64,000 nt of DNA, taken from Desulfobacula toluolica Tol2 (GTDB lineage: Bacteria; Desulfobacterota; Desulfobacteria; Desulfobacterales; Desulfobacteraceae). Position numbers and translations under genes: made by a program. Of the stretch, positions 23,062 to 49,905 are shown one piece after another (positions within the stretch are counted from its first letter, which is position 1; every line of letters starts with the position of its first letter). Below the pieces are notes generated by a model. It was given only the letters and a program-made list of their open reading frames with translations, was not told where the DNA came from and searched no databases. The DNA lies in NCBI RefSeq assembly GCF_000307105.1, contig NC_018645.1, positions 3,978,001 to 4,042,000 of the forward strand, written 5' to 3'.

Positions 23062-23069
23062 GACTATGT

Positions 23070-29308: not shown

Positions 29309-29352
29309 TACTATAAAGACAATAAAAGCTAAAAATAAAGGCTAAAAAAATA

Positions 29353-33903: not shown

Positions 33904-33907
33904 TATC

Positions 33908-34507: not shown

Positions 34508-34538
34508 AAAAATTTTTATCAACAAAAGGAGATTTTCC

Positions 34539-34958
34539 ATGCTCAACATTTCAGCTGCCAGACGGGCAAACTCAAAAAACCTTGAGTTGAATATCGCCCC
34601 CCTGATTGACATGGTCTTTATATTATTGATTTTTTTCCTGGTAACCACAAGTTTTGTAAAAGAGACCGGAGTTGACATAGCAAGGCCCACAGCCTCAACA
34701 GCGGTCAGTAAAGCAAAATCCACCATCCTAATTGGCGTTACACAGCACAACACCATCCATATTGACCGGCGCCAGGTGGATATCCGTGCGGTCCGGGCCA
34801 ATGTGGAACGGGCCCTGGCAGAAAACCCGGAAGGCAGTGTTGTTATTGTGGCGGACAAACAAAGTCTGACAGGTCTTGTGATCAATGTGATGGATGCCTG
34901 CAAGCTGGCCGGTGCCCAAAACATATCCATTGCCGCAAACCTGGATACTGGAGCATAG
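34539..34958 (+). CDS. exbD: ExbD-like TonB accessory protein
   Basis: 139 residues behind AAAAGGAG. One membrane helix (about 20-40) with the essential Asp in 'APLIDMVFILLIFFLV', then a periplasmic domain with 'NTIHIDRRQVD' and 'VVIVADKQSLTGLVINVMDA'. Works with ExbB in proton-driven TonB activation. It precedes tonB by 4 bases. Confidence 0.93.
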   Translation: MLNISAARRANSKNLELNIAPLIDMVFILLIFFLVTTSFVKETGVDIARPTASTAVSKAKSTILIGVTQHNTIHIDRRQVDIRAVRANVERALAENPEGSVVIVADKQSLTGLVINVMDACKLAGAQNISIAANLDTGA

Positions 34959-34962
34959 AAGT

Positions 34963-35646
34963 ATGTTTGTCACCTCTTTCAGATCTTTTTGGGGATGGAC
35001 ATTGGCCCTGGTAGGTTCCATCCTTCTCAATATAACTCTCTTCGGCTTGATGCCCGGCCTGATCCAGATGGTTCCCGACAAGCCTGATGCACTGGATGAC
35101 ATCAGACAGATACGGGTCATCAGGGTTAAAAAACCCACAACCCCGCCCCGGAAAAAAGAACCGGAAAAAATAAAAAAACCCGATACCTTGAAAAAAATAG
35201 CCCGATCCCATACCACACCCCTCAAACAAAGGCCCATGAACCTGAAGCCACGACTTGACTTTGAATTAAACCCGAAACTTCCGGCAGCGCCAATGGATCT
35301 TGTGATGCCAAGTCTTGAACACTTTTCCATGAATGGCCCGATGCTGAAAACCCACTACACCATGGGTGAACTGGATTCCCCCATTACCCCCCTTGTAAAA
35401 ATTCCACCCATCTATCCGATCAGGGCCACCCGGCGTGGGATTGAAGGAGCTGTAACGGTCCAGTTTCTTGTGACAAAAAACGGAACCGTGGAACAGATCA
35501 GCATCATTGATGCCCAGCCTGAAAACATATTTAACCAAAGTGTGATAAACTGTGTTTCCCATTGGAAATTCAAGCCAGGAACCGTGGAAGGCATTCCTGT
35601 TGCCACACTGGCTCAAACCACTATCCGATTCAAACTGGAGCAATAA
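34963..35646 (+). CDS. tonB: TonB
   Basis: 227 residues from ATG 34963 (the frame is open from 34894 inside exbD). N-terminal anchor helix about 10-35; a Pro/Lys-rich periplasm-spanning stretch about 50-90 ('VKKPTTPPRKKEPEKIKKP' region); C-terminal TonB domain about 145-227 with 'YPIRATRRGIEGAVTVQFLV' and 'CVSHWKFKPGTVEGIPV'. It transmits energy to the two corrinoid receptors encoded in this cluster. The stop overlaps the TPR gene start (TAATG). Confidence 0.92.
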   Translation: MFVTSFRSFWGWTLALVGSILLNITLFGLMPGLIQMVPDKPDALDDIRQIRVIRVKKPTTPPRKKEPEKIKKPDTLKKIARSHTTPLKQRPMNLKPRLDFELNPKLPAAPMDLVMPSLEHFSMNGPMLKTHYTMGELDSPITPLVKIPPIYPIRATRRGIEGAVTVQFLVTKNGTVEQISIIDAQPENIFNQSVINCVSHWKFKPGTVEGIPVATLAQTTIRFKLEQ

Positions 35647-37034
35647 TGAAACAGATAAGGTTGAAACATATTTTAATTCTCCTGGTTTTTCTGGTGATAC
35701 CGTCACTTTCCATGGCAGAAGAAGAACACCTTCCCCTGGCAGCTGGTATTTGTGTCAACAAAGCCCAACTGCTGTTTCAAAACGGCGAAATCCCAAAAGC
35801 CGTTGACGTGCTGGAAAAGTTCACGGCAAAGCAGGCCGGGCTTGATAAACAACAAATTCAAAAAAAAGGATATGCCCATTATTATATCTATTTCCTTTTG
35901 GGCAACTATTACCTGACACTGGCACAAGAAACTGAAGGAAAACAAAACAAAATATTTTCCCGCAACGCCATGACAAACTTTCAGAAGGCGGTTCTGCAGA
36001 ATCCAACCTTTTGTGCAGCCTGGCTGAATCTTGCAAAGACCAGGTATGAAGCCGGCCTTTTTGCCCAGGCAGCCAAAGCTTTTGAAAAAGGATACCAGAC
36101 ATCTGAAACTCAAAAACCGGTTCACCTGTATTATGCTGCAGTCTGTAATTTTCATGCAAACGACCCTGCAACGGCATTGACCGTATTTAACCGGTTGATA
36201 AAACTTCACCCTGACAAAGTGACCCTTGCCTGGAAAGAAACCCTTGTCCATATCCTTTTCGCCCTTGAACGTTACCGGGATGCCCTGCCCTGGCTTGAAC
36301 AACTGGCTTCAAACTCAAAAAAAGAAAAACAAAAAAAATGGCAGGAGATTCTGCTGCACCAGTATATGTCATTGAATATGAACAAAAAGGCCCTGGAATA
36401 TGCTGATTTTCTGACCCGGACGGATACCCTGGAACCAAAATGGTGGAAGGCGCTGAGCCATATCCATCTGGGAAACAACCAGTTCAAGCAGGGATTATCC
36501 GCCCTGGTCATTTACGGCTACTTGACCCCCATGACCCGTAAAGAGCTTTTGCTGGCGGCAGACCTGTATCTTTCCCTGGATGTGCCAGCCAAGGCTGCAT
36601 CTTTTTACACGGCTGCATTAAAAGAGAAACAGGATCAAAAAAATATTGCAAAAATAAGCCGGGCCTTTACCATGGCCTATGATCAGGACAAAGCCCTGGA
36701 ATGGATTGATAAAGGACTGTCCGCTTGTCAGGACATTAAACTGCTCAGGATAAAAGCCCAAATCCTGTATAACAAAAAAGAATATGCAAAGGCAGCAGAC
36801 GCATATGAAACGCTGGCAAAAAAAATGCTTGAACAAAAGACGGCCTCAAAAAACGATACCCCGGGCCAGGTATGGCTAATGCTTGGGTATTGCGCCATGA
36901 ATGATCACCAGCTTACCCGGTCGCAGAAGGCTTTTTTAAAAGCATCCAAGTATAAAAAACAGCAAAAGTCCGCCCAAAAAGCCATTGCCTTGATAAAGGC
37001 AATGCAAACAAAACAGAACTGTCAGGTAATGTGA
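35646..37034 (+). CDS. TPR-repeat protein of the TonB cluster
   Basis: 462 residues from ATG 35646. Signal peptide about 7-24 ('IPSLSMA'). The rest is helical TPR-like repeats: 'YFLLGNYYLTLAQ', 'AWLNLAKTRYEAGLFAQAAKAFEKGYQ', 'HLYYAAVCNFHANDPATALTVFNRLI', 'YAKAADAYETLAKK' and 'LMLGYCAMNDHQLTRSQKAFLKASKY'. Secreted TPR proteins often close TtpC/TonB2 operons and are thought to stabilise the complex in the periplasm. It is translationally coupled to tonB. No enzymatic motif. Confidence 0.85.
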   Translation: MKQIRLKHILILLVFLVIPSLSMAEEEHLPLAAGICVNKAQLLFQNGEIPKAVDVLEKFTAKQAGLDKQQIQKKGYAHYYIYFLLGNYYLTLAQETEGKQNKIFSRNAMTNFQKAVLQNPTFCAAWLNLAKTRYEAGLFAQAAKAFEKGYQTSETQKPVHLYYAAVCNFHANDPATALTVFNRLIKLHPDKVTLAWKETLVHILFALERYRDALPWLEQLASNSKKEKQKKWQEILLHQYMSLNMNKKALEYADFLTRTDTLEPKWWKALSHIHLGNNQFKQGLSALVIYGYLTPMTRKELLLAADLYLSLDVPAKAASFYTAALKEKQDQKNIAKISRAFTMAYDQDKALEWIDKGLSACQDIKLLRIKAQILYNKKEYAKAADAYETLAKKMLEQKTASKNDTPGQVWLMLGYCAMNDHQLTRSQKAFLKASKYKKQQKSAQKAIALIKAMQTKQNCQVM

Positions 37035-37093
37035 AATCATAATTTTGTTCATCAGGCGGCAGTTTCAAAAAACAAAAAAAGGATATTACAGCA

Positions 37094-37885
37094 ATGACCA
37101 GTAAAAAAAATACAAATAAAGATGTTCCCATTATTTTAACTGCATTCGGCACCACTGCACGGGCATTTTCAACCTATGAAAAAATGGGCCAGGTGTTTGA
37201 GGCCACATTTCCGGAACATAAAATTCACTGGGCCTATTCCTCGAGAATGGTAAAATGCACCATGAAACGCAAAAAACAGCTTGATTTAAAAGATCCCATT
37301 GAAATGGCCCAAATTTTTGCCGAGCAGGGCCACCAATGGGTTGTCATGCAATCACTGCACATGATCTGCGGTCATGAATTCGACCGCTTAGTCACGGAAA
37401 GAAGCCATGCAAATATCCGCTCCTCCATTGGCCTGCCCCTGCTGACCTCTTACAATGACTATGAAAAAGCAGCTCTTGCCCTTGAGCCTATGTTCCCAAA
37501 AGATAAAGATGAGGCCGTCATCCTTGTGGGCCACGGTACGGACCACCCTGCATGGACTGCCTACCCTGCCATGGAAGCCGTGCTTCGCCGACACTATGGC
37601 AACCGTATATTCATAGGTGTGGTGGAATATTTTCCAGATATGGACGATACCCTTCAAAGAATAAAATCTGCCGGGTATAAAAAAGTCTGCCTCATCCCCT
37701 TAATGCTGGTGGCAGGCGTCCACTTCAAGGAAGATCTTACCTGCGAAGAAGACTCCTGGCAGAAAACCTTTGAACGAAACGACATCCAGGTCTCAGTGGT
37801 TGATCACGGCATCGGTTATATTGATGGCATTACAAAAATATTTTGCGACCATATATCAGATGCATTGGATGTTATACCATTGTAA
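37094..37885 (+). CDS. cbiK: Cytoplasmic CbiK-type cobaltochelatase
   Basis: 263 residues, no signal peptide ('MTSKKNTNKDVPIILTAFGTT'), unlike the copy at 23381, so this is the cytoplasmic form. Chelatase His in 'ILVGHGTDHPAW' (about His147) and 'LVAGVHFKEDL' (about His210). 'VMQSLHMICGHEFDRL' matches the same block in the periplasmic copy. It should insert Co(II) into sirohydrochlorin in the anaerobic B12 pathway. It is the last gene of corrinoid operon 1, 59 bases after the TPR gene; no ribosome site stronger than AAAGGA precedes it. Confidence 0.93.
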   Translation: MTSKKNTNKDVPIILTAFGTTARAFSTYEKMGQVFEATFPEHKIHWAYSSRMVKCTMKRKKQLDLKDPIEMAQIFAEQGHQWVVMQSLHMICGHEFDRLVTERSHANIRSSIGLPLLTSYNDYEKAALALEPMFPKDKDEAVILVGHGTDHPAWTAYPAMEAVLRRHYGNRIFIGVVEYFPDMDDTLQRIKSAGYKKVCLIPLMLVAGVHFKEDLTCEEDSWQKTFERNDIQVSVVDHGIGYIDGITKIFCDHISDALDVIPL

Positions 37886-38186: not shown

Positions 38187-38214
38187 TTGACATTTCAAAG
38201 TTATTAGTTAATAT
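38187..38214 (+). promoter_or_regulatory. Promoter of corrinoid operon 2
   Basis: TTGACA (38187-38192) and TAATAT (38209-38214) with a 16-base spacer, just before the riboswitch. The palindrome found in promoter 1 is absent here. Confidence 0.65.
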
Positions 38215-38222
38215 TTTTTCCC

Positions 38223-38382
38223 GTTCAGGTGCTTAAAGCATTTAGCACAATAGGGAACCACGTTGAAATCGTGGACGGGCCCACCGCTGTAATCGGGGAC
38301 GAACGCTGCAGTATACCACTGACCAAATGGTTGGGAAGGTGTGGCGCAAGATTGATCCGTTAGTCAGAAGACCTGCCTGAAC
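38223..38382 (+). ncRNA. Cobalamin riboswitch 2
   Basis: Same conserved blocks as riboswitch 1: GTTCAGGTGC, TAGGGAACCACG, GGACGGGCCCACCGCTGTAA (as GGACGGGCC and ACCGCTGTAA), CCACTG, TGGGAAGG, and AGTCAGAAGACCTGCC. P1 closes by GTTCAGG with CCTGAAC. It governs receptor 2, BtuF-CbiZ 2 and the CobN-like cluster. Confidence 0.94.
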
Positions 38383-38445
38383 ATAGAGGGTATAAACTTT
38401 GAGGACGAAGTGACCCTTGTCAAATATCTAAGGATAAAAAAGGGA

Positions 38446-38490
38446 AATCCCTGGAATGAATAATTATTCAGTCCGGGGATTTTTGTTTTT
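38446..38490 (+). terminator. Riboswitch 2 expression platform (terminator)
   Basis: AATCCCTGGA with GAAT pairs with ATTC and TCCGGGGATT, followed by TTTTGTTTTT. It ends 40 bases before the receptor start, indicating transcription termination when cobalamin is bound. Confidence 0.8.
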
Positions 38491-38529
38491 CCGGACAGGC
38501 AATTTTACTTGTTTATAGGAGGTTTTTTC

Positions 38530-40509
38530 ATGTTTAAGCATAGATTTGTTAAGTTGTTTGCAGTGTTATTGTTTATGTGGTCACTGCCTGCCTGGAGTGA
38601 AGAAATAGAACAGTCGGAAAAAAAGACGTCGATATTAGACACGATGGTGGTAACTGCGGGAAGAGTGGAAGAAAAAAAAGAGGATGTCACCACCAATATT
38701 ACAATTGTGACAGAAGAAGAGATCCAGCAGTCTTTTGCCCAGGATCTGGGTGATTTGCTATCCAAAAAAGGGTTTATGATCCGGGAATATCCCAATTCAC
38801 TTGTTTCAGTGGAAATCCGTGGTTTCAGGACTGAAACCCATGGTAATGATCTGGCCAGTCATGTTCTTATTCTGATCAACGGACGACGGGCCGGAACCGG
38901 AAATCTGGCAAAAATAATGCTGGGTAATGTGGAGAGGATTGAAATCATCCGTGGACCTGGGTCTGTCCAGTATGGTGCTTCTGCCATGGGCGGGGTTGTC
39001 AATATTATTACCAAACAAGGGGCCGGCAAACCTTCATTCTATGCGGAAGGAACTTTAGGCAGCTGGGACTATCAGCAGGCTTCAGCCGGAGCTTCCGGCC
39101 AGTTCAAGGCTTTTGACTTTTCATTTGATGCCTCAAAATCATCTCAGGATGATTACGACACTGCCAATGGCGACAAATATTACAACACGGGATTTGATTC
39201 AAAAAAGAGAGTTAGTTTCAATACCGGCTGGACGTTTGCGCCTGAAAACCGGATTGGATTCAGCTATACCGGGTATGAAGGTGATGGCATCGGAAATCCT
39301 GACTATCTGAGCAATAATGATTTGGACAATTATGTGGACCATGCCATCAAAACCTTTGATTTGGTTTATGATGGGCAAACAGCTGATGGATTTTTGATAT
39401 GGAACCTGCGCTATTTTAATGGAAAAGATGAGTACGAAACCTTTGATCCGGAAAATTATGGCAGCAATAATTCCTACTTTAGAGATACAGATCAACAGGG
39501 TGCGCAGGCACAGCTGACGGCTAAGTGGGATTTCGCCCATATCACAGCCGGTGCTGACTGGACTAATTATGCCATCAGCAATACCTATACCATGGCCGGT
39601 GAAGAAAACACTTATGACAACCCGGCGGCATTCCTCATGGCAAAAATCAAACTGATGGACAACAAATTGATTCTATCGGCAGGGGGCCGTTATGATAAAT
39701 ATGAAATCGAAAGTGATGATGGTCAAAAGACTGATGAAACCAACTGGTCCAGCAATTTAGGAGCAGTCTACAAACTGGCACCAGGGTTAAGTGTACGGGC
39801 CAATTTTGCCGAAGCATTCAGAATGCCAACCGCAGACCAGCTTTACATGTTTAATGATTACAGCGCCTGGGGGTTTGGCATCTGGTCTGGAAATCCGGAT
39901 CTTAAACCGGAGGAAAGCAAAACATATGAAATAGGCATGGATTTTTCAAGAGCAGCCTTTTCTTGTGGTATGACCTATTTCTACACGGATTTTAAAAATA
40001 AGATTGATTATTCTTATATCCCGGCTGAAGACCTTACCCGTTATGAAAATGTTGAAGGTGCCACCATTTCAGGCATTGAAGGCAGTCTGCAATTGGATAT
40101 TGGAGCCCTGCTTGACTGGTCATATACACTGGCGCCCTACGGTTCATTTACCTATCTTACCGAATATGCGGATGACGCTACCAAGAAAGATCTTCAGTAT
40201 ACCCCCAATTGGACGGCATCCTATGGTTTAAAGGTTGCTAATTCCGATATCGGCTTCTCCGCAGGCCTGAATTTCAGCTATATAGGTGAGCAGGATATAA
40301 CCGACTATGAAGGAACCGGTGCCACAGCACTGGGAAGCCATACTGTTGCTGATCTGACTGTTTCCAAAACACTTTTGTCCTTTGAAAAATATGGTGATGT
40401 TTCTCTTAAGGCTGAAATTCAAAATCTTTTCAACAAAGACTATGCGGTTGTTCAAGGGTATCCTATGCCGGGTCGTACATTTTTTGCCGGTTTGAAATAT
40501 TTGTTTTAA
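38530..40509 (+). CDS. btuB: TonB-dependent corrinoid receptor 2 (BtuB-like)
   Basis: 659 residues from ATG 38530 (AGGAGG upstream; a TTG at 38509 precedes the ribosome site). Signal peptide about 1-25 ('LPAWSEE'). TonB box region 'ILDTMVVTAGRVEEK' is close to that of known BtuB. Plug: 'VSVEIRGFRTE', 'ILINGRRAGTGNLAKI' and 'IEIIRGPGSVQYGASAMGGVVNIITK'. Barrel ends in 'PMPGRTFFAGLKYLF' with terminal Phe. Directly controlled by riboswitch 2 and followed by the second BtuF-CbiZ gene. Confidence 0.93.
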   Translation: MFKHRFVKLFAVLLFMWSLPAWSEEIEQSEKKTSILDTMVVTAGRVEEKKEDVTTNITIVTEEEIQQSFAQDLGDLLSKKGFMIREYPNSLVSVEIRGFRTETHGNDLASHVLILINGRRAGTGNLAKIMLGNVERIEIIRGPGSVQYGASAMGGVVNIITKQGAGKPSFYAEGTLGSWDYQQASAGASGQFKAFDFSFDASKSSQDDYDTANGDKYYNTGFDSKKRVSFNTGWTFAPENRIGFSYTGYEGDGIGNPDYLSNNDLDNYVDHAIKTFDLVYDGQTADGFLIWNLRYFNGKDEYETFDPENYGSNNSYFRDTDQQGAQAQLTAKWDFAHITAGADWTNYAISNTYTMAGEENTYDNPAAFLMAKIKLMDNKLILSAGGRYDKYEIESDDGQKTDETNWSSNLGAVYKLAPGLSVRANFAEAFRMPTADQLYMFNDYSAWGFGIWSGNPDLKPEESKTYEIGMDFSRAAFSCGMTYFYTDFKNKIDYSYIPAEDLTRYENVEGATISGIEGSLQLDIGALLDWSYTLAPYGSFTYLTEYADDATKKDLQYTPNWTASYGLKVANSDIGFSAGLNFSYIGEQDITDYEGTGATALGSHTVADLTVSKTLLSFEKYGDVSLKAEIQNLFNKDYAVVQGYPMPGRTFFAGLKYLF

Positions 40510-40524: not shown

Positions 40525-42543
40525 ATGAGATCAGATAATCGTCGTTTAAGCTTGTGCTTTTTTCTGACCGGTTTGATCCTGATGCTGCCCCTCCCATGTT
40601 CGGGAGGGGCTTTTCCCTTAACTGTAACAGATTCCGCACAAAACAAGCTCATTATACAAAAAAAACCCCGGCGCGTGGTCTGCCTGGTGCCCTATATCAC
40701 AGAAATGATAGGGGCATTCGGCCGGGAACAGGTACTGGTGGGGTTGACCCGTCAAGACCTGGTTTTGTATCCTTCCTTTCGAAAAAATCATGTGGGCGGT
40801 TATTTTCATCCCGACATTGATGCAATTGCCAAAACCCATCCGGATCTGATCATTGCAGCTCCTTTTCATAAAGCAGTGATTCAATATTTTGGACCGGACT
40901 GCTGCCCCCTGATGGTGATGGAAACAAAAAGCATAGCAGATGCCTTTTATCAGATGGAAATAATCGGGCAATTGTTTGATTGCGAAAAAAAAGCCTCAGA
41001 GATCATCCAGCGCAACCGGGAACAATTGGCATTGGTCAAGTCCAGGCTGGGCAACCTGCCGGTCCAACAAAGAAAACGAGTAGTCCGGGTAATGGCGGGC
41101 ACCACGCTTTCCTGCCCGGGTGACGATTCATTCCAGAATGAAATAATTACCGCCGCCGGGGGCATCCCTCCCAAATGGGGGAAAAACGGATTTGCCGTGC
41201 CGGTCAGCCAGGAACAATGGCAGCAGTTCAATTCCCAGATGGTCTACGGATGCAGCAGAAACGAAAAGGCTGTGCAAGCCTTTCTGAAGCAGGACGGCTG
41301 GAAAGATGTGGCAGCAGTGCAGAATGGATTTATCAGAATGTTTCCCTGTAATCTGACCTGCCAGGTCTCCACACGGGTGGGGTATTTTGTCCAGTGGCTG
41401 GCAACCGTCCTCTACCTGGATCTGTTTGCAGACCCTGAAAAGGCCGTGACCACCAATGCGGTTCTGGATGAATCCCCTGTGGTCCTGGGCCTTGATTATG
41501 TTAAGCAGGCTCGGGTGGTGCGGCACCGGGTGGCGGATTCCGAATACAAGTCCCTGGTGATTCGTTTCAACGGCCCCCAGGAGATCCTGTCAACCTTTGA
41601 AGGAAACCTGACCGGGATACTGGGAGCAGGCAACACCTATGTGCCCATGCCTGCCAGCCTGGGACACATGGCCTATGGCGTTACCCAGGCACAGGAAGCG
41701 ATCCAAAAAAATCTGGGGTTTGCCAAAGGTGAATTTAGCACCATGATGACCGGTGCTGACATGGACAACCTGGCCGTGGTAAAAAAGAGCTTTAAAGACC
41801 TGGAAGTGACCGCACTGGTAACGGCGGGTGTCAAAGGCAATGCCATGCGCATGTCAAAGGATACCGGCCAATATTTTTCACACGGCACCATCAATATTAT
41901 TGTCATGACCAATCGTACCCTGCCCCCCAATGCCAGGGCCAGAAGCATTATAACAGCCACCGAGGCCAAATCCGCAGCCCTGCTGGATATGGATGTCCGC
42001 AGTTCCTACACACCGTTGACCCACCGTGCCACCGGCACGGGCACTGACAATATCATGGTGGTGCAGGGGGACGGGCCTGTTGAGCGCTTTGCCGGTGGAC
42101 ACAGCAAAATCGGCGAGCTCATTGCCAAAGCGGTCCATGCCGGTGTCACCCAGGCGATTTTAAAGCAGAACGGTCTTGCGGCAGACCGGGATCTGTTCCA
42201 GAGATTAACCGACCGTAAGCTGAGGATAGAGGAGATTGTCAAGCACTGCGCCTTTGATTATGACAAACAGGTCCTGATTTCCAGAATGGAAAAATTATTG
42301 GCAACACCCTATTATTCGTCTTTCATTGAGTCGGCCCTGTCAATCAGTGATGACTATGAAAAAGGGCTTATCAAAGAATTAAACTTTTTCGATACCATGT
42401 GCTGTTCAGTAACTGCCAGGCTGTCAGGAAAAAAAGATATCAGACCTGAGACCATTGATTCGTCCAATGCTCTGCCGATTGTTATGGCCAAGGCGTTTGA
42501 TGCTTTGATTTCCGGTATCACAGGAGATCATAATGAAAAATAA
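40525..42543 (+). CDS. Exported BtuF-CbiZ fusion 2
   Basis: 672 residues, RBS AAAGGA. Signal peptide about 8-28 ('LPLPCSGG'). BtuF-like domain about 30-335 ('RRVVCLVPYITEMIGAFGREQVL', 'GYFHPDIDAIAKTHPDLIIAA', 'GWKDVAAVQNGFIRMFPCN'). CbiZ domain about 365-600 with 'MMTGADMDNLAVV', 'TAGVKGNAMRMSKD', 'ATGTGTDNIMVV' and 'GGHSKIGELIAKAV'. It has the same architecture as fusion 1, diverged throughout and more GC-rich in codon use, so the duplication is old. It should capture and trim corrinoids in the periplasm before the CobN-like complex or importer acts. Confidence 0.9.
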   Translation: MRSDNRRLSLCFFLTGLILMLPLPCSGGAFPLTVTDSAQNKLIIQKKPRRVVCLVPYITEMIGAFGREQVLVGLTRQDLVLYPSFRKNHVGGYFHPDIDAIAKTHPDLIIAAPFHKAVIQYFGPDCCPLMVMETKSIADAFYQMEIIGQLFDCEKKASEIIQRNREQLALVKSRLGNLPVQQRKRVVRVMAGTTLSCPGDDSFQNEIITAAGGIPPKWGKNGFAVPVSQEQWQQFNSQMVYGCSRNEKAVQAFLKQDGWKDVAAVQNGFIRMFPCNLTCQVSTRVGYFVQWLATVLYLDLFADPEKAVTTNAVLDESPVVLGLDYVKQARVVRHRVADSEYKSLVIRFNGPQEILSTFEGNLTGILGAGNTYVPMPASLGHMAYGVTQAQEAIQKNLGFAKGEFSTMMTGADMDNLAVVKKSFKDLEVTALVTAGVKGNAMRMSKDTGQYFSHGTINIIVMTNRTLPPNARARSIITATEAKSAALLDMDVRSSYTPLTHRATGTGTDNIMVVQGDGPVERFAGGHSKIGELIAKAVHAGVTQAILKQNGLAADRDLFQRLTDRKLRIEEIVKHCAFDYDKQVLISRMEKLLATPYYSSFIESALSISDDYEKGLIKELNFFDTMCCSVTARLSGKKDIRPETIDSSNALPIVMAKAFDALISGITGDHNEK

Positions 42544-42630: not shown

Positions 42631-45600
42631 ATGTACAAAAATCAAACTATAATCTTATTGATTGTTGCCTTCCTGTCCCTGGCTTCGACAGCTTTCCCGG
42701 CTGACACCAGGGACAAACAAACCCTGACCCTGCTGATGGGGGCGGCAGCTTCCTATAATGTCACCCAGGCCATTTCCCAGGTATTGGAAGACCCCGGGAT
42801 ATCAGGGCATGTGACCCTCCATTATTATACAGAGGAAGATCTGGCCGATGGAAAGATCGATCAGGAGGTCATCAATGAATCCGGCATCATCATCCTTGAT
42901 GACATGTATCGCACCTTGAGCGAATATGTTCTTGAAAATGCAAATTTCAAGACAACCAAGGTTTACGGTCTTTCCACGGTGGCAAACAACCCTGAAAAAA
43001 TCATATCCGATCCCAGGATCAAGCAGTATGCCCGTTCCCTTACCCGGAAAAACATATCAAACCTCATCTGTTTTCTGCTCAAGCGGGAATACGGCCTGGC
43101 TACGGACTGTGATCCGCCCCAAATCGTTCCGAAAACAGGTATTTTCCATCCCCAAAGTGATCGCATTTTCGAAAGCTTTGAGGCCTATTTTTCCTGGTAT
43201 AAATCATCAGGACTCTACAAAGAAAAAGGCTTCTGGGTCGGGATTCCTGAAATGAATACCTACGTTTATCCAGGAGAAACCGGATACGTTGTGCGTTCGC
43301 TCATCGAAAAGCTGGAAGCAAACCGGATCAATGTGTTGCCGGTATATTCCTATCCCCCGGACAAGGCGGTGGAACACTATTTCTACGACGAAAAAAGCCG
43401 AAAATCCAGGGTCAACCTGATTGCGGCCATGTCCTACAAGTTTGCCCCATCCAGTGCCGAAAAAACCCGAAAGCTTTTTGCCAAACTTGGGGTTCCGGTT
43501 TTAAATCCCATCAGAGTGCATTTTCTGACCATTCCCCAGTGGGAAAATGATCCCCAGGGGCTTGGACCCATGGAAGTCACCTATGCCATGAGCAACCCGG
43601 AGGTTCTGGGCCTGATCGAACCTTCCGCCATAGGCGGCAGGGTGGCATCCCGGGACAAACAAACCGGAAAAGATGTATACACCTATCAGCCCATTGAAAA
43701 GAATATCGACTTTTTCATCCAACGCATCAATGCCTGGCGCAGACTCCAGTCAACGCCGAATAAGGACAAAAAAATTGCCATCATGTTCTGGAACCACACC
43801 CCCGGCAAGCAGAACATCGGTGCCACCTACCTGAACGTGTTCCGCAGCCTGGAAGAAATTTTACAGCGGCTTTCCAAAGAAGGCTATCATGTAGCGGGTA
43901 ACCTGCCATCTGAAGAGGAGATAAAAAATCTTATCCTGGCCTCCGGCCGAAACATTGGTTCCTGGGCTTCGGGTGAGCTAGATGCGCTTATCAGCAAAGG
44001 ACAAGCGATCCGCCTGCCCTTTGAGCGCTACAAGCAATGGTATCAAACCATTGATCCAGAATACAAAAAAAAGGTAGAAAAAGACTGGGGCCGAGTGGAG
44101 GATTCCAAAATCATGACTCGGAACCAGGATATTATTTTTCCCTGTATCCCCCTTGGCAACATCATCCTTATACCCCAGCCCTCCAGGGGCTGGCATGATG
44201 ATCCGATAAAGCTATACCATTCAACCAAGCTGATGCCCCATCATCAATATACGGCATTTTACCTCTGGCTGAAAAACGAATTCAAGGCCGATGCCATCGT
44301 CTCTTTTGGGACCCACGGATCCCATGAATGGCTTCCCGGCAAGCAAGCGGGCTTAAGCCAATCCTGCTCCCCGGAAGTCCTGATCCGGGACATACCCAAT
44401 ATTTATCCCTATGTCATGGATAATATCGGAGAGGGGGTCCAGGCCAAACGCCGGGGCCGGGGCGTGATTATCGATTACCTGATCCCGGCCATGAAAAAGG
44501 CCGGAACCTATGAAGAATACGAGGAACTTGGGGGCCTTATCAGCGAGTATAACGACACCTTAATCCGGAGTCCCGAACTGGCAGGCCAAAAATTCAAGCG
44601 CATTGAAGCCATGGCAGCCAAACTGGGACTGCTTGAGGATCTGATGATAAAAAAATTTAACGAAGAGGCCATTGAAGCTGTTGAACATTATTTGCTTGAA
44701 CTGCAGGAAGCCAATCTGCCATACGGCCTTCACACCTTTGGCACCTCTCCCACAGGGGAAGCATTAGAAGAATTTTCCCAACTGATCCATGAACGCAACG
44801 ACACACTTGCTTTTCAAGAAATCAAAAAGAATTTAAGCCTTTGCAATAGAGAAATGGATCATCTGATTAAAGGCCTTGACGGCGGATACATCCCTTCTGC
44901 TGAGGCCAATGACCCCTTGAGAAACCCCGAGGCCATCCCCACGGGGAATAATTTTTACGGGTTTGATCCAGCCAAGGTGCCGTCAAAGGATGCCTGGAAC
45001 TTAGGAAAAACCCAGGCCGATCAAATGATTGAAAAATATGTAAAAGAAAACAAAACCTACCCGGAAAAAATCGGCCTGGTTTTCTGGAGTATTGAACTTC
45101 AACGCAATGAAGGAACCCAGGTGGGGACCGCTCTCCACCTTCTGGGGATGAAGCCTGTCTGGGACAAGAACAACAAGGTGATTGGGGTTGAACCCATCCC
45201 GGGAACTGTACTCGGTCGGCCGCGGATTGATGTGCATATGCAGGTGTCAGGCCTTTTCAGGGATAATTTTCCCACCCTGATTCTGCTGATGGATGAAGCC
45301 GTGCGCAAGGCCGGCCAACTAAAGGATGTGGACAATTTCATTGCTGTTCACAACCAGAAAATAAAAGCTTACCTTCTGGAAAAAGGCTATGACGAAAAAG
45401 AAGCCGATCAGTTAAAACAGCTGAGGGTGTTTTCCAATGAATTGGGCAGCTACGGTAATACCATTGAAGACCTTATTCCCAACAGCGGGCTCTGGGAAGG
45501 CGATGATGAGATTGCCGATGTGTTTATCAACTTTGTCTCCTTTGGATATGGTAAGGGCGTGTGGGGCAAACCCCTGAAGTCCGCCTACAAAAAGAATCTT

Positions 45601-46527
45601 GAAGATGTGAAAATGACCATGCACACCCGGTCCAGCAATCTGTTCATGAACCTGGATACCGACGGCGTTTTCTCAGAGCTGGGCGGCCTTGCCCTGGCCG
45701 TAAAACGGGTCAGCGGGGCATATCCGGATGTGGTGCTGTCCAACCAGATGAACCCCGATGCCGCCTATGTTGAAGATATAGAAAAAACCATTGGCAAAGA
45801 GCTGCGCTCCCGTTACCTGAATCCCAAATGGATTGAGGGCATGAAAAAGGAAAATTATGCAGGTGCAAGGGAGATGAACCGGTTTGTGGAACATCTCTGG
45901 GGCTGGCAGGTGACGACTCCCTTTGCCGTTGACGGTGCAAAATGGGAACAGATCTATGAGGTCTATATTCAGGACAAATACGGCATGGAGCTGAAATCCT
46001 TTTTTAACAAACACAACCCCTGGGCCCGACAGTCCATGGCGGCACGGATGCTGGAGGCGGACCGTAAAGAATACTGGAAAGCGCCGGAAGAGATAAAAAA
46101 GAATCTGGCCAGGACCTATGCATTAAATGTCATTGAAAAAGGGGTGGCCTGCTGTGAACACACCTGCAACAATCCCATGCTTCAAAAATTTGTCACCAAC
46201 ATCATTTCCCTCCATGGCCTGCTGACGCCCAAAGAGCTGGAGCAGTTTAAAATGGTCATTGCCAAAGCCGTGGGAAAAACCCAGGCCGAACATGAAGCCG
46301 AGCATGCCAAAACCTGGGAAGGATTGAAAGAGCCCATTGAAAAAAATCAGCAGGAAGAGACTATCAAAGCGAAAACCCAAGGCAAACAGATGAAAGGCTT
46401 TGAAATGGTTGAAGACAAAATGGAGGAGACAAAGATTACGTCATCGGGCTCATCCTGGATGGTCATGGTTATTGTCATCGGCATCATAGGCCTTGTGGCC
46501 CTGGGATGGAAAAGAAAAAAAATATAA
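42631..46527 (+). CDS. Exported, membrane-anchored CobN-like chelatase (HmuS-like)
   Basis: 1298 residues behind AGGAG. Signal peptide about 6-24 ('STAFPAD'), C-terminal membrane helix about 1270-1292 followed by 'KRKKI'. So the catalytic body lies in the periplasm, unlike classic cytoplasmic CobN. CobN/BchH-type blocks are present: 'KIAIMFWNHTPGKQNIGATY', 'HQYTAFYLWLKNEFKADAIV', 'FGTHGSHEWLPGKQ', 'YPYVMDNIGEG' and 'PRIDVHMQVSGLFRDNFPT'. No CobS/CobT or ChlI/D-like ATPase lies nearby. The following membrane genes match the HmuTUV set of haem-dechelatase loci. Under a cobalamin riboswitch it may remove or insert metal in corrinoids. Confidence 0.88.
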   Translation: MYKNQTIILLIVAFLSLASTAFPADTRDKQTLTLLMGAAASYNVTQAISQVLEDPGISGHVTLHYYTEEDLADGKIDQEVINESGIIILDDMYRTLSEYVLENANFKTTKVYGLSTVANNPEKIISDPRIKQYARSLTRKNISNLICFLLKREYGLATDCDPPQIVPKTGIFHPQSDRIFESFEAYFSWYKSSGLYKEKGFWVGIPEMNTYVYPGETGYVVRSLIEKLEANRINVLPVYSYPPDKAVEHYFYDEKSRKSRVNLIAAMSYKFAPSSAEKTRKLFAKLGVPVLNPIRVHFLTIPQWENDPQGLGPMEVTYAMSNPEVLGLIEPSAIGGRVASRDKQTGKDVYTYQPIEKNIDFFIQRINAWRRLQSTPNKDKKIAIMFWNHTPGKQNIGATYLNVFRSLEEILQRLSKEGYHVAGNLPSEEEIKNLILASGRNIGSWASGELDALISKGQAIRLPFERYKQWYQTIDPEYKKKVEKDWGRVEDSKIMTRNQDIIFPCIPLGNIILIPQPSRGWHDDPIKLYHSTKLMPHHQYTAFYLWLKNEFKADAIVSFGTHGSHEWLPGKQAGLSQSCSPEVLIRDIPNIYPYVMDNIGEGVQAKRRGRGVIIDYLIPAMKKAGTYEEYEELGGLISEYNDTLIRSPELAGQKFKRIEAMAAKLGLLEDLMIKKFNEEAIEAVEHYLLELQEANLPYGLHTFGTSPTGEALEEFSQLIHERNDTLAFQEIKKNLSLCNREMDHLIKGLDGGYIPSAEANDPLRNPEAIPTGNNFYGFDPAKVPSKDAWNLGKTQADQMIEKYVKENKTYPEKIGLVFWSIELQRNEGTQVGTALHLLGMKPVWDKNNKVIGVEPIPGTVLGRPRIDVHMQVSGLFRDNFPTLILLMDEAVRKAGQLKDVDNFIAVHNQKIKAYLLEKGYDEKEADQLKQLRVFSNELGSYGNTIEDLIPNSGLWEGDDEIADVFINFVSFGYGKGVWGKPLKSAYKKNLEDVKMTMHTRSSNLFMNLDTDGVFSELGGLALAVKRVSGAYPDVVLSNQMNPDAAYVEDIEKTIGKELRSRYLNPKWIEGMKKENYAGAREMNRFVEHLWGWQVTTPFAVDGAKWEQIYEVYIQDKYGMELKSFFNKHNPWARQSMAARMLEADRKEYWKAPEEIKKNLARTYALNVIEKGVACCEHTCNNPMLQKFVTNIISLHGLLTPKELEQFKMVIAKAVGKTQAEHEAEHAKTWEGLKEPIEKNQQEETIKAKTQGKQMKGFEMVEDKMEETKITSSGSSWMVMVIVIGIIGLVALGWKRKKI

Positions 46528-46557
46528 GGAAACACTCGTTATCAAGGAGTTATAAAA

Positions 46558-47310
46558 ATGTTTGAACAATTATGGATGAGTGGGATACTGGTTGCTTTTT
46601 CCGCTTTTGGCATCAAAGCAGGCATGGGGCTTGGCGCACAGGTTTACAGCAAAACTGTTTCTACAAAGAAAAAAGCGCTTTTTCTTGCTGCAGGCTTTTT
46701 TGCCTATCTTCTCCTGTTTTTGCTTATGTATGCCCTGGTGAGCCGGCTGAATCTGTTGAGCTACCTGGACCATCTTTCCAACATGCTCCAATACGGCATG
46801 CTGGTACATCTGCTGGTTGCCGCAGGATTGTTTGTCTGGGGAGCAAAATTGCTGTTGAATCAGTCGAAAAAAAACAATTCCTCCCTGTTCCGGGCCAGCC
46901 TGCTTCTTGTTATGCCCTGCCCGGTATGCGCCACCGTGATCCTTCTCAACCTGACCCTGGCCCTTTCCCTTTCAACCCTGACCCCGTTTTTAACCACCCT
47001 GATCCTGTTCGGTCTGTTTGCGGGCATAATTGCCGTAACTTTAGGGCTGCTTTTTCCCTATCACCATCGGATGGGCTCAGGCAATGTTTTCTTAGGATCG
47101 TCAATGACCTTGATATCCCTTTATTTTCTAATGACCGTTATCATCGCCCCCATCTACCCAAAAATAAAAGCCGCCTTTGCCATGGCGGTTTCCAATACTC
47201 CGGTAAGCGGGATCGACCCCAAATCAACCCTTATTTTATCCGGACTGTCCCTTGCCCTGGCAGGCACAGGATTTATCCGAACCTATTTTAACAAAGGAGA
47301 CATTCATTGA
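46558..47310 (+). CDS. DUF2162-like membrane protein (HmuT-like)
   Basis: 250 residues, RBS AAGGAG. Six to seven membrane helices. 'VAFSAFGIKAGMGLGAQVY' at the N-terminus, 'LLVMPCPVCATVILLNLTLALSL' (Cys pair within the helix, about residues 119-123) and 'TLGLLFPYHHRMGSGNVFLG' are the recognisable blocks of this putative transporter family. It lies between the CobN-like gene and the TolQ-like gene, as in HmuSTUV operons. The Cys/His residues may carry metal. Its stop overlaps the TTG start of the next gene. Confidence 0.78.
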   Translation: MFEQLWMSGILVAFSAFGIKAGMGLGAQVYSKTVSTKKKALFLAAGFFAYLLLFLLMYALVSRLNLLSYLDHLSNMLQYGMLVHLLVAAGLFVWGAKLLLNQSKKNNSSLFRASLLLVMPCPVCATVILLNLTLALSLSTLTPFLTTLILFGLFAGIIAVTLGLLFPYHHRMGSGNVFLGSSMTLISLYFLMTVIIAPIYPKIKAAFAMAVSNTPVSGIDPKSTLILSGLSLALAGTGFIRTYFNKGDIH

Positions 47311-47954
47311 ACCTTTTTCCTGCATTCCAAACCATTCTCTATACCATTTCCACTGCCCTGCTTTATCCGGTGGTGGCGCTGCTAATCATCCTCTGTCTCT
47401 GGCTGCTGGTCTATTCCGGCGGATTTATTGCAGAATGGATAAAGCGGACTCAATTTCGAACAAACGGGCAATTGTCGGATTCCCTGGAAATGATTCAAGA
47501 ACAGCTGGCGCTTCCCCCTTCTTTAAGTGAAAATCTGCCCGCACACATCACAGCCTACACCCGGCAGATTAAAAACATCATAGCCGGAAGTTCCGTATTT
47601 CAAGAAGAAAAAGTGGAAGACCTTAATCAACAAAAACAATATGCCTTGTTGCGGGAGGTGGATAAAATCCGTCTCATTGTCCGAATCGGCCCGAGTCTCG
47701 GGCTCATGGGAACCCTGATACCCATGGGAACCGGTCTTGCCGATTTGACCAAGGGCAATATGGCTCAACTTTCCTCAAGCCTTATCCTGGCCTTTACCAC
47801 AACGGTTGTGGGCCTGGCCCTTGGAGTTACCGCCCATTTTTTCTCTGTTGTCAAAGAACGATGGACAATTGAAGATATGCGGCATATCAACCTGATCACC
47901 GAAGCCATGGTCAAAAAAATGGTCAAAAAGGATATAAAGGCGGAAAAATTATGA
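47307..47954 (+). CDS. MotA/TolQ/ExbB-family protein (HmuU-like)
   Basis: 215 residues starting at a TTG (47307) that overlaps the previous stop; AAAGGAG is spaced correctly and no ATG fits. N-terminal helix about 15-40; then 'IRLIVRIGPSLGLMGTLIPMGTGLADL' (in parts) and 'SLILAFTTTVVGLALGVTAHF', the two conserved TolQ/ExbB channel helices with the G-L-M-G-T-L-I-P motif. It should use proton flow to power the CobN-like/DUF2162 complex, in place of the missing AAA+ ATPase; this is inference. Confidence 0.85.
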   Translation: MNLFPAFQTILYTISTALLYPVVALLIILCLWLLVYSGGFIAEWIKRTQFRTNGQLSDSLEMIQEQLALPPSLSENLPAHITAYTRQIKNIIAGSSVFQEEKVEDLNQQKQYALLREVDKIRLIVRIGPSLGLMGTLIPMGTGLADLTKGNMAQLSSSLILAFTTTVVGLALGVTAHFFSVVKERWTIEDMRHINLITEAMVKKMVKKDIKAEKL

Positions 47955-48316
47955 AATACCTGATCACCAGCCGACCGGGACAATTGGGCCGTGCCGGAAA
48001 AGAAGAGCCAATGAACGGGGTGGCGAATTTGTTTGATGTTGCCCTGGTTTTTATCGTGGCCCTTCTGCTTTCACTGATGTCCACCTTCCAGGTCCTTGAT
48101 TTTTTTAATCCTGAAAGTGATATAACCATCATGAAAAAAGTCCGGGATCAATGGCACATCATCACCAAAAAAGGCCAGGAGGTCAAAGTCAAAAAGGTGA
48201 CGGACCGCAAAGTGGGTGGAGATGAAGGCTTTGAACTTGGTACTGCCTATCAGTTAAAAGACGGCCGTGTTATCTACATTCCCAATGGCACCAATCAGGA
48301 GGAAGGTATAAAATGA
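47951..48316 (+). CDS. DUF2149-like membrane protein (HmuV-like)
   Basis: 121 residues, overlapping both neighbours by 4 bases. One membrane helix about 27-48 in 'GVANLFDVALVFIVALLLSLM', whose Asp resembles the proton-channel Asp of ExbD, then a soluble tail with 'GQEVKVKKVTDRKVGGDEGFELGTAYQLKDGRVIYIP' (in parts), typical of DUF2149. It probably pairs with the TolQ-like protein as ExbD does with ExbB. Confidence 0.8.
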   Translation: MKYLITSRPGQLGRAGKEEPMNGVANLFDVALVFIVALLLSLMSTFQVLDFFNPESDITIMKKVRDQWHIITKKGQEVKVKKVTDRKVGGDEGFELGTAYQLKDGRVIYIPNGTNQEEGIK

Positions 48317-49905
48317 AAATTTTGTTCCGATGTGTGGTAATGGTATGTTTTTTATGGGGACACTTTGTCATAACCTGTACTGCCGGACCTGATACCTCAA
48401 ACTCTTTGAAAATTGCCCTGGTGCATTACGGCGTGAGATATAAAGATCCAAAACTGAATTTAAAAGAGCTGGTGCGGCTGAATCGCAAAGCCGCCCTTGA
48501 AGGGGCACGTATCATCCTTAACACGGAACTTGCCGTCAGTGGATATTCTTTCCAATCCCGTCAGGACATTACCCCCTATACAGAAACAGACAACGGAAAA
48601 ACAATTCAGGCCATAAAAACGCTGTCCAGGGAACTGGGGATTTACGTCGGAATTACCTTTCCTGAACGCGACCCCTTAACCCAAAGTTACTATAACAGCG
48701 CCTTTGTCATTGATCCCCAGGGGCAATTGGTGTGCAAATACCATAAGATTTATGCGGAAAAGCGATGGGCAAGACCCGGCAGCCCTTATCAAGAAGGGAC
48801 ATTTGACACACCATGGGGTCGAATCGGGGTAGCCATCTGTGCAGACAGCTATTTCGGGCTGATCCCACGGACCATGGCTTTAAAGGACGCAGATTTTCTG
48901 TGGATTCCTGCCAACTGGCCTCCCACAGGCCAATTGAGTCCCCTGGAGGTCTGGCAGGCCAGGGCACTGGAAAACGGAATCTATCTGGCCGCCTGCAACA
49001 GAACCGGAAAAGATCGCGTAATGGACTGCCGACAGGCGGTTTCCGGTGTCATTGATCCCACGGGCACACCCATATTTTCAGGATCATCGGAAAGCAGCAA
49101 GATTTTTTTTGCTGATATCCCCCTGAATGAAGATGGCCGTTTTGGCAATATTCATCGACTGGAAAGGATGAAATTACGGGATATTGACCTATACCGCCAG
49201 ATCTATCTGGACCCCTGGGTTGAAAATTTAACCTTGTATTATCAGTTGCCAAAAACAGGTATGCTTGATGTTCACTGTTTTGTACCCCCATCATCGGGCC
49301 GGATTGATCTTAAGGTCTTGGAAACCGCTGTTGAAAAACGCCAAACAGACCACCCTGCCCTGTGGATACTGCCTGAATCCTCTGCAAACCAAGCAAAAGA
49401 GGCTGATCTGTTAAAGATCTCCAAAAACCGCAATGTGGCCTTTGCCTTGTCGGTTGCCGGTGAAACTCAGACGCTGAGTCTGATTACTCCCAAAGGCATT
49501 CAGCCCTTTTTTGAACCGGATATCATCCCTTCTCAGGCATTTCCCTTTAAACTCATTCACTACGGACCTGCTGCCATCGCCATGGTTCCAATGGAGGCTT
49601 TCAGGCATCCGGAACTTGCTGTTGTTCTCGCCAAATTGGGATGTGATCTGGTGGTAGTGTCTGAAGACAAGCTATCTTCGAAAGATCTGCTTTTAAGCCG
49701 AATGAGGGTACTTAACAGCGTTGCTGTGGCAGCTTGTTCGAACAATGGGGCACAGATCACCTGCATGCAGGGGCTTCACGGCAACCTGGATCAACAGCAC
49801 CAGATCCAGCCGGGTGTTTGTACCTATGGTTTGGATACATCCAGGACACGCAAGAAAAGTTTTCAATATCACATTGATTATGATCTATTGCTAAAAAACA
49901 ATTAA
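48313..49905 (+). CDS. Exported nitrilase-family amidohydrolase, tandem domains
   Basis: 530 residues, overlapping the DUF2149-like gene by 4 bases. Signal peptide about 5-24. The first carbon-nitrogen hydrolase domain (about 32-285) has the full triad: Glu72 in 'LNTELAVSGYSF', Lys145 in 'KYHKIYAEK' and Cys176 in 'VAICADSYF'. The second (about 305-520) keeps the fold pattern ('ALWILPESSAN', 'LGCDLVVVSEDKL') but lacks an equivalent Cys ('AIAMVPMEAF'), so it is probably non-catalytic. Family members hydrolyse or transfer amides. As last gene of the riboswitch-controlled CobN-like operon it may act on corrin side-chain amides; that is inference. Confidence 0.85.
   Translation: MKILFRCVVMVCFLWGHFVITCTAGPDTSNSLKIALVHYGVRYKDPKLNLKELVRLNRKAALEGARIILNTELAVSGYSFQSRQDITPYTETDNGKTIQAIKTLSRELGIYVGITFPERDPLTQSYYNSAFVIDPQGQLVCKYHKIYAEKRWARPGSPYQEGTFDTPWGRIGVAICADSYFGLIPRTMALKDADFLWIPANWPPTGQLSPLEVWQARALENGIYLAACNRTGKDRVMDCRQAVSGVIDPTGTPIFSGSSESSKIFFADIPLNEDGRFGNIHRLERMKLRDIDLYRQIYLDPWVENLTLYYQLPKTGMLDVHCFVPPSSGRIDLKVLETAVEKRQTDHPALWILPESSANQAKEADLLKISKNRNVAFALSVAGETQTLSLITPKGIQPFFEPDIIPSQAFPFKLIHYGPAAIAMVPMEAFRHPELAVVLAKLGCDLVVVSEDKLSSKDLLLSRMRVLNSVAVAACSNNGAQITCMQGLHGNLDQQHQIQPGVCTYGLDTSRTRKKSFQYHIDYDLLLKNN

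Follow-up and report, generated by a model that had tools for sequence, protein, structure and literature searches.

The genome of Desulfobacula toluolica Tol2 (5.2 Mb, one contig) carries, behind a cobalamin riboswitch, an operon for a predicted exported protein of the CobN family. This raises the question of what such a protein acts on in the periplasm, and with what assistance. We studied it in a window of 64,000 nucleotides (contig NC_018645.1, positions 3,978,001-4,042,000), a term that denotes the whole stretch of DNA analysed. The operon, hereafter cluster B, encodes a TonB-dependent receptor, a BtuF-CbiZ fusion, the CobN-like protein, a DUF2162 protein, a TolQ/ExbB-like protein, a DUF2149 protein, and a tandem nitrilase (Table 1). 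The substrate is very probably a corrinoid. We tentatively read the operon, with somewhat less than even confidence, as a periplasmic line for corrinoid disassembly (salvage or remodelling), made when adenosylcobalamin is short.

An operon with a predicted exported CobN-like protein

The original prediction, made from the sequence and its open reading frames (ORFs), described a train of CobN-like, DUF2162, TolQ-like (TTG start), DUF2149, and nitrilase genes behind the second of two cobalamin riboswitches, a TonB receptor, and a BtuF-CbiZ fusion. The ORFs lie where it placed them, and the riboswitch model and Pfam matches bear out both the train and what precedes it (the CbiZ domain PF01955 scores 176.7 bits, for a cut-off of 27). 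Its description of the CobN-like protein as exported and C-terminally anchored, and of the nitrilase as exported, agrees with a hydrophobic segment at the N-terminus of both and, from sequence, another at the C-terminus of the CobN-like protein. The BtuF-CbiZ fusion also begins with such a segment; the mature nitrilase would lack roughly the first 29 residues. All export calls for window proteins were made by hydropathy alone, with no signal-peptide program. The genes are closely packed: 30 bases separate the CobN-like gene from DUF2162, and the DUF2162/TolQ-like, TolQ-like/DUF2149, and DUF2149/nitrilase junctions overlap by 4 bases each.

The stretch behind the aptamer (38395-38500) folds strongly (-37.1 kcal/mol, z -4.14) into a hairpin which, with its U tract, looks like a transcription terminator; a consensus terminator scan did not have this site among its terminators. 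The mechanical ORF of the receptor begins at TTG 38509, and its start is more likely ATG 38530, which is preceded by AGGAGG (seen by eye).

DUF2162 and DUF2149 presumably correspond to HmuT and HmuV, as judged from gene company. DUF2149 has an invariant Asp29. A similarity of HmuV to ExbD has been published (PMC10100974); between the DUF2149 and ExbD profiles, both shallow, hhalign gave a probability of 0.4%, which is not significant. DUF2162 has a PCPVC motif within a hydrophobic stretch, invariant in the four sequences aligned (4/4), for which a thiol-redox or metal role is possible. An AlphaFold model of DUF2162 from four sequences reached a pLDDT of 55. None of the seven operon genes matches the HmuY-type Pfam family; HmuY diverges, and no dedicated search for it was made.

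The CobN-like protein stands apart from cytoplasmic CobN and from HmuS

We built a tree of the CobN family from 63 of 70 rows (seven near-copies were dropped), using ORFs of more than 1050 aa away from contig edges and a quick method without a mixture model. Of loci L031-L046, which are repeats, only L033, L035, and L036 were included. Proteins were labelled exported or cytoplasmic by their best BLAST match, followed by a hydropathy check: a hydrophobic segment lies within the first 110 residues in 48 of 50 exported and 1 of 16 cytoplasmic proteins, and a C-terminal one is found in 48 of 50 and 0 of 16, respectively. A branch with SH-aLRT 99 places the exported proteins and HmuS on one side and cytoplasmic CobN and ChlH on the other. 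A position of the window protein inside cytoplasmic CobN without exported relatives, named in advance as one outcome that would speak against the original prediction, is thus ruled out. HmuS falls outside a group of 42 exported rows (99), and the window protein groups with its four nitrilase-linked orthologues (100). The program flagged HmuS and L078 as long branches, and L078 joins HmuS, so the exact place of HmuS is unsure. In the PDB, the best match of the window protein is HmuS, with 473 bits against 435 for CobN.

Of the residues that matter in HmuS, His538 is named as essential for haem turnover (PMC12583661). It is kept: its motif, HFG(T/A)HG, reads FGTHG in the window protein, and the His is present in 50/50 exported proteins. 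His1209, within the HmuS motif LSLDHxxEFMGG, is Gly in the window protein (LDTDGVFSELGG); this column holds Asp in both solved CobN proteins and His in the solved ChlH, by our own alignment. The HmuS haem ligand His254 is His in none of the 50 exported proteins (two have gaps), in a region where the alignment is weak. The Met-rich insert of domain IV is absent: phmmer leaves 8 residues (706 to 715) where HmuS has 221 (684 to 906), and our own alignment has 31 residues there in the window protein, with zero Met. Met79, another haem ligand of HmuS, lies ahead of the printed alignment, which begins at HmuS residue 171. With His1209, His254, and the insert all missing, HmuS proper is ruled out: judged by the characters published for HmuS (PMC12583661), the window protein does not belong to it. 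It may still work like HmuS.

The HmuSTUV-like set recurs behind cobalamin riboswitches

We surveyed 389 genomes of the class, with genes called as mechanical longest ORFs. DUF2149 scores above cut-off in 55 genomes, and a CobN-family gene is present in 54 of these, compared with 27 of the 334 others. After dropping five of the 69 DUF2149 rows for scores below cut-off and counting once the two pieces in G012, where the operon is present as a fragment, 63 genes remained. Their same-strand company is consistent: a TolQ-like gene lies within 3 kb of 61, DUF2162 within 4 kb of 58, CobN within 6 kb of 56, CbiZ within 8 kb of 24, and a nitrilase within 4 kb of 7. ChlD/ChlI were found within 6 kb on the same strand of none of the 63 (in G018 they lie more than 6 kb upstream, past another riboswitch), which agrees with the original proposal that the AAA+ partners of CobN are absent. 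DUF2149, TolQ-like, and DUF2162 genes take the place of ChlI/ChlD.

Riboswitches were located with a sequence pattern that found 18 of 18 copies as well as the two in the window, gave no extra hits in these loci, and also found 32 of 32 held-out copies; it replaced an earlier fuzzy pattern that performed poorly (11 of 18 found, 18 extras). Positions for the 63 genes combine this pattern with six further hits outside the fetched stretches, which reach mostly about 10 kb upstream, so that "within 12 kb" is an upper bound on the sequence examined. A same-strand cobalamin riboswitch lies within 12 kb upstream of 44 of the 63 DUF2149 genes (median 3.9 kb), where about 1% would be expected (from 399 riboswitches, a total added up by hand, and an assumed mean genome of 4.6 Mb). 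On this proportion, the HmuSTUV-like set is mainly cobalamin-regulated in this class. Among the 19 genes without a riboswitch, 10 are on contigs with less than 7 kb upstream and two belong to second clusters downstream of a window-type operon. The full order of receptor, BtuF-CbiZ, CobN, DUF2162, TolQ, DUF2149, and nitrilase behind a riboswitch recurs in G034, G235, and G162, and Desulfogranum japonicum (L116) has the riboswitch and the same order, with the receptor uncalled and DUF2149 found by tblastn only. Exported CobN-like proteins also stand with TolQ and DUF2149 in L078 and L079 (genomes G351 and G234), where no riboswitch was found.

A tandem nitrilase family in the company of corrinoid genes

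The nitrilase has 530 residues, and the intact Glu-Lys-Cys triad that had been claimed for it is present in its N-terminal domain (E72, K145, C176) and invariant in 27/27 aligned relatives. Its two halves are related (hhalign E 4.2e-6, probability 87%), and the stretch at the Cys position of the degenerate C-terminal copy reads MVPMEAF. The structural model has a mean pLDDT of 90.8, and its first half matches the amidases 2w1v and 6ypa in the PDB (TM-score by target 0.83; best PDB match E 7e-22), which places the protein in the nitrilase superfamily by fold and triad. It occurs in 17 of the 389 genomes (E <= 1e-60), 16 of which have CobN, compared with 65 of the 372 others.

We then compared gene neighbourhoods, starting from an alignment gathered irrespective of gene context. 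From 105 relatives, 80 were kept: 37 of the family and 43 ordinary nitrilases. The scores of the two groups are well separated: the first 37 have E <= 3e-57, most with a match spanning some 500 residues (contig ends truncate L133 and L135, and L104 is broken), and rows 38-80 have E >= 2e-22 and match the N-terminal domain only. Markers were sought by tblastn (>=60 bits) in loci of up to 10 kb on each side. CobN, CbiZ, or a cobalamin riboswitch is present in 28 of the 37 tandem-nitrilase loci and in none of the 43 ordinary ones (Fisher 4e-14, a value that overstates independence, as loci share descent and some metagenome bins give two). Taken singly among the 37, the markers are CbiZ (19), radical-SAM (19), CobN (18), riboswitch (16), BtuC-like (12), and ChlD/I (10). 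The order BtuFCD-nitrilase-radical SAM-CobN-ChlD-ChlI-CbiZ recurs, whole or in part (L124, L127, L128, L136, L137), in Syntrophobacteraceae, Armatimonadota, Actinomycetota, and other records, mostly bins. In L042 (= L119), an ATP:corrinoid adenosyltransferase lies beside a gene of the AP_endonuc_2 superfamily, and CbiZ was not found there. These associations point to a distinct tandem-domain family linked to corrinoid genes.

A radical-SAM (SPASM-like) protein is encoded near the nitrilase, in several loci directly upstream (L010:2873-3985, L040, L041, L042, L109, L124, L127-L131, L136). It scores below cut-off for all 25 NCBIfam models among the matches listed, and could serve a further corrinoid step.

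Periplasmic and cytoplasmic sets in one genome

A PF02514 search of the D. toluolica genome found four CobN-family proteins, each encoded in a cluster with a cobalamin riboswitch at its head. A second exported CobN-like protein (L008/L011) is accompanied by a receptor, DUF2162, TolQ, and DUF2149, without a nitrilase, and the riboswitch in L008 is immediately 5' of the receptor gene; the idea that the exported CobN set of the window is alone under cobalamin control is thereby ruled out. The two remaining proteins lack an export segment; they are encoded in a region (L009/L010) where two riboswitches diverge. This region encodes a CobN-like protein, CcsA-like and ResB-like proteins, BtuF-, BtuC-, and BtuD-like proteins, a radical-SAM protein, CobN, a receptor, ChlD, ChlI, an ABC exporter, and a CbiZ and a nitrilase that both lack an export segment (some names by eye). 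This nitrilase and the exported one have 39% identity across 512 columns. Judged from sequence, one genome thus holds two sets that each comprise CbiZ, a CobN-family protein, and a nitrilase: a periplasmic one, in which the CobN-like protein is joined by TolQ/DUF2149/DUF2162, and a cytoplasmic one, in which CobN is joined by ChlD/ChlI. One CobQ/CbiP-family gene scores above cut-off in the genome and is available for re-amidation.

These regions hold other features. The CcsA-like (below the Pfam cut-off) and ResB-like proteins, of cytochrome c biogenesis type, are encoded at L009:12764-14409 within the BtuFCD-CobN cluster, and L039 and L041 have them too; a role in tetrapyrrole or redox handling is possible. 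The CobN-like protein beside them (L009:9032-12718) belongs to a third subtype without export segment, also found in L111, L114, L115, and L129-L131, in which the His1209 column holds Cys in six proteins and Gly in one, and two proteins have Glu instead of His538. A small DUF4019 protein is encoded after the second exported CobN-like gene (L008:11201-11638), with similar ORFs in L054, L070, and L088, and group II intron pieces lie on both strands of the same stretch (L008:630-956 and 3476-4350). In L009, two ORFs that look like OYE by eye (1171-2625 and 4817-5911) have their first several hundred residues in common and flank another ORF, as the product of a recent local duplication.

A putative line for corrinoid disassembly and its alternatives

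In the reading that we favour, the TonB receptor would bring in cobamides, and BtuF-CbiZ would bind them and cut off the nucleotide loop. The nitrilase would hydrolyse corrin side-chain amides, in reverse of the amidation by CbiP/CobQ, and so give a partly amidated ring fit for the CobN family. The CobN-like protein would then act on the central metal, most likely by removal or exchange, as HmuS does with haem, with TolQ/DUF2149/DUF2162 standing in for AAA+ ChlI/ChlD as a membrane-embedded helper. In favour of this reading are the riboswitch at the head of the train and the BtuF-CbiZ fusion within it, the recurrence of the gene order and of riboswitches in other genomes, the company of the nitrilase family, the cytoplasmic counterpart, the CobQ/CbiP-family gene, and the branch common to the exported proteins and HmuS. 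The substrate of the nitrilase, the direction of the metal step, the order of steps, and powering by protons are what we infer from context, and the de-chelation, re-metallation, deamidation, and proton-powered catalysis of the original prediction are likewise putative activities of the operon.

A corrinoid processed by CbiZ would be cobyric acid, amidated at all carboxylates save one, and CobQ/CbiP adds four further amides after the CobN step; four amides would thus have to come off before the ring matches what CobN takes. A nitrilase-fold amidase, encoded near CbiZ and CobN in the periplasmic and the cytoplasmic set alike, fits this step and would explain why the genes travel together; the reading also predicts the product. 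CbiZ is described as cutting the amide beside the aminopropanol linker (PMC7733943), and CobN as inserting cobalt into the a,c-diamide of the ring (hydrogenobyrinate a,c-diamide) in the aerobic pathway (PMC8123684, PMC6771967). For the metal step, kinship with HmuS favours removal; the energy input, the logic of the riboswitch, and the inertness of cobalt corrins described in PMC6771967 favour insertion. We lean towards a disassembly in which the metal is removed or exchanged, and place insertion close behind. A bolder version, which we regard as doubtful, is that bacteria run the end of B12 synthesis backwards, with CbiZ reversing CbiB, the nitrilase reversing CbiP/CobQ, and the CobN-like protein reversing cobalt insertion. 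Corrinoids would be reset to the a,c-diamide ring and their metal changed or removed, by means of an AAA+ motor in the cytoplasm and a proton-driven membrane helper in the periplasm of this lineage.

Several observations weigh against disassembly. Cobalt corrins reportedly retain their cobalt unless the ring is destroyed (PMC6771967), so that such removal would be unprecedented chemistry, and stripping corrinoids when B12 is low would be sensible for unusable analogues only, not for usable corrinoids. The His1209 column holds His in 0 of the 50 exported proteins (Asp in 40, Gly in 8 including the window protein, Phe in 2). The receptor, which the original prediction called BtuB-like, is a TonB receptor, but its B12-type label is weak: the haem-receptor model gives 224 bits and the B12-receptor model 178, both under cut-off. 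Seven DUF2149 genes have enough upstream sequence and no riboswitch by the pattern test; two of them (G351, G234) represent an unusual subtype that lacks DUF2162 and has Phe in the His1209 column. Of the 37 nitrilase loci, nine have none of the three strict markers. Three of these are contigs under 5.5 kb (L103, L104, L133), L125 has an adenosyltransferase-like (ATP:corrinoid) ORF adjoining the nitrilase (by eye), L122 has a radical-SAM gene, and L102, L107, L112, and L117 have no recognised corrinoid neighbour in the locus. The match between compartments is also imperfect, with a lipoprotein-type nitrilase (by eye) next to ChlD/ChlI in G120 and a cytoplasmic nitrilase near an exported CobN in G027.

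Could the CobN-like protein insert cobalt instead? CbiZ and the nitrilase would then trim cobalt-free or wrong-metal corrinoids released by neighbours to the a,c-diamide, which is the substrate of CobN in the aerobic pathway, and the CobN-like protein would load them with cobalt in the periplasm, drawing on the proton channel for energy. Such substrates may exist, as cobalt-starved purple sulfur bacteria are described as making cobalt-free corrinoids, one tentatively hydrogenobyric acid (PMC8123684, PMC6771967), and cobalt insertion into exogenous cobalamin has been speculated for Chlorobaculum tepidum, as cited in PMC8620254. Insertion matches the logic of a riboswitch that calls for B12 when it is short, and the Asp of 40 exported proteins is that of both solved CobN proteins. 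However, the exported clade branches with the dechelatase HmuS and not with CobN, and the window subtype has Gly where Asp stands. We also know of no proton-driven chelatase, and regard this alternative as fairly unlikely.

The nitrilase might also act on another bond or molecule (the aminopropanol amide, a fragment of the lower ligand, or an acyl transfer), with the CobN-like protein as a binder or deliverer of corrinoids working with the TonB system. Acyltransferases and glutaminase domains are also members of the nitrilase superfamily, the lnt and NAD synthase models match the protein with low scores, and the proposed function of the family derives from sequence and gene company. HmuU/HmuV have been published as energisers of haem import through the TonB receptor (PMC12583661), but cluster A already encodes a separate ExbB/ExbD/TonB set. 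His538 and the E-K-C triad, conserved in every exported protein and every nitrilase aligned, respectively, also weigh against this reading, which we regard as unlikely. An ordinary Hmu-type haem or iron system that merely came under B12 control would account for the resemblance of the gene set to HmuRSTUV, for the top score of the receptor on a haem-receptor model, and for HmuS as the top PDB match. It is very improbable given the missing HmuS features and the presence of the riboswitch, the CbiZ fusion, and the corrinoid-linked nitrilase.

Relation to known systems

Cluster B resembles HmuRSTUV of Bacteroidota (PMC12583661, PMC10100974) in its TonB receptor, its exported and anchored CobN-family protein on a branch common with HmuS and with the superfamily His538, and its TolQ/ExbB-like and two further membrane proteins. 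It differs by the cobalamin riboswitch, BtuF-CbiZ, and nitrilase, and by having neither a recognised HmuY (no search aimed at it was made) nor the HmuS-specific features. With CobN-ChlI-ChlD and CobNST it shares a large subunit of the CobN family, of which the same genome has a cytoplasmic paralogue near ChlD/ChlI; the window protein differs in being exported, in having no AAA+ partner close by, and in lying outside the cytoplasmic CobN branch. The nearest described kind is that of the CobN-like BtuS (Rodionov 2003, as cited in PMC6460266) and of the Hmu-like operons under cobalamin riboswitches in PMC10100974.

In the literature, BtuS is a third type among CobN relatives, with a predicted periplasmic location and membrane anchor (PMC6460266), and an Hmu-like operon behind a cobalamin riboswitch is described in Bacteroides fragilis (PMC10100974). 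Cluster B belongs to this kind by its exported CobN-like protein and Hmu-type membrane proteins behind a cobalamin riboswitch, and adds a nitrilase and BtuF-CbiZ to these clusters as described there; the B. fragilis BtuS1/2 were studied for haem iron. Gene context gives good support to a corrinoid version of HmuSTUV: the part of the original prediction that stands is an exported HmuSTUV-like set in a cobalamin-riboswitch operon, outside cytoplasmic CobN, whereas its novelty does not fully stand, as an Hmu-like core behind cobalamin riboswitches and a CobN-like BtuS are already in print (PMC10100974, PMC6460266). CbiZ/CbiR remodelling is comparable through the CbiZ domain and the AP_endonuc_2 gene in L042, that superfamily being the one of CbiR (PMC7733943), and differs in that the CbiZ of cluster B is part of an exported fusion, with CobN-like and nitrilase genes after it. 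The nitrilase shares its N-terminal fold and E-K-C triad with superfamily amidases such as those of Pyrococcus horikoshii (6ypa) and mouse nitrilase-2 (2w1v), and is set apart by a second, degenerate domain, an export segment in some members, and corrinoid gene company. Among the papers listed, we found none linking a nitrilase to corrinoids or CbiZ (the word is also absent from the main text of PMC8123684), and a search on DUF2149 and DUF2162 gave no paper with either word among those listed. By title and abstract, no listed paper on the strain deals with these genes. In these searches the corrinoid-linked tandem nitrilase family was not found in print, and the class-wide riboswitch survey, the HmuS residue test, and the paired cytoplasmic and periplasmic sets in one genome are added here.

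Surroundings of the operon

Cluster A, 15 kb upstream of cluster B, has its own riboswitch and is devoted to corrinoid uptake (Table 1). The CbiK behind this riboswitch is probably periplasmic. Downstream of cluster B, positions 53459-61111 of the minus strand encode a polyketide-synthase-like protein of 2550 aa (PfaA-like by eye).

Table 1. Features of clusters A and B, in window coordinates.
Feature	Position	Strand	Evidence
First cobalamin riboswitch, head of corrinoid-uptake cluster A	23056..23244	+	109.4 bits
CbiK with N-terminal hydrophobic segment (cluster A)	23381..24253	+	PF06180 3.5e-74; hydropathy
BtuF-CbiZ, BtuF-like, BtuC-like (FecCD), BtuD-like ATPase, TonB receptor (cluster A)	24292..31305	+	Pfam domains; Btu names from context
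DUF3450, two ExbB-like, ExbD-like (34539-34958, by eye), TonB, TPR protein, signal-less second CbiK (cluster A)	31622..37885	+	
Cobalamin riboswitch aptamer (cluster B)	38210..38394	+	RF00174, 118.3 bits, E 4.7e-29; also found by own pattern
Terminator-like hairpin and T tract 3' of aptamer, putative expression platform	38437..38491 (ends approximate)	+	Fold and sequence
TonB-dependent receptor (TBDR_B)	38530..40509	+	PF00593 3e-55, PF07715 8e-19
Exported BtuF-CbiZ fusion	40525..42543	+	PF01497 7e-17, PF01955 7e-52; N-terminal hydrophobic segment
Exported, C-terminally anchored CobN-like protein, 1298 aa	42631..46527	+	PF02514 1062 bits; tree, residues, hydropathy
DUF2162 membrane protein (HmuT-like by gene company)	46558..47310	+	PF09930 3e-45
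TolQ/ExbB-like (MotA/ExbB) proton channel protein, HmuU-like, TTG start	47307..47954	+	PF01618 1e-8
DUF2149 (HmuV-like by gene company)	47951..48316	+	PF09919 2e-29
Exported tandem nitrilase, active-looking N-terminal domain, degenerate C-terminal copy	48313..49905	+	PF00795 2e-35

Implications

HmuY, HmuT, and HmuV have been proposed as diagnostic of haem transport (PMC10100974). For HmuT and HmuV this proposal is revised by the 44 of 63 DUF2149 genes of the class that lie behind cobalamin riboswitches. The company of the tandem nitrilase points to corrinoid work across records of Desulfobacterota, Chlorobiota, Armatimonadota, Actinomycetota, and Pseudomonadota, many of them metagenome bins. 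The paralogous sets of D. toluolica, one with AAA+ partners and the other with the TolQ-type trio, make it possible to compare, within one genome, two natural ways of assisting a CobN-family protein. The nitrilase family gives a direct handle on whether corrin amides come off and whether the metal exchanges enzymatically. If the end of B12 synthesis is indeed run backwards, this would be, to our knowledge, the first known enzymatic side-chain de-amidation and de-metallation of a corrin.

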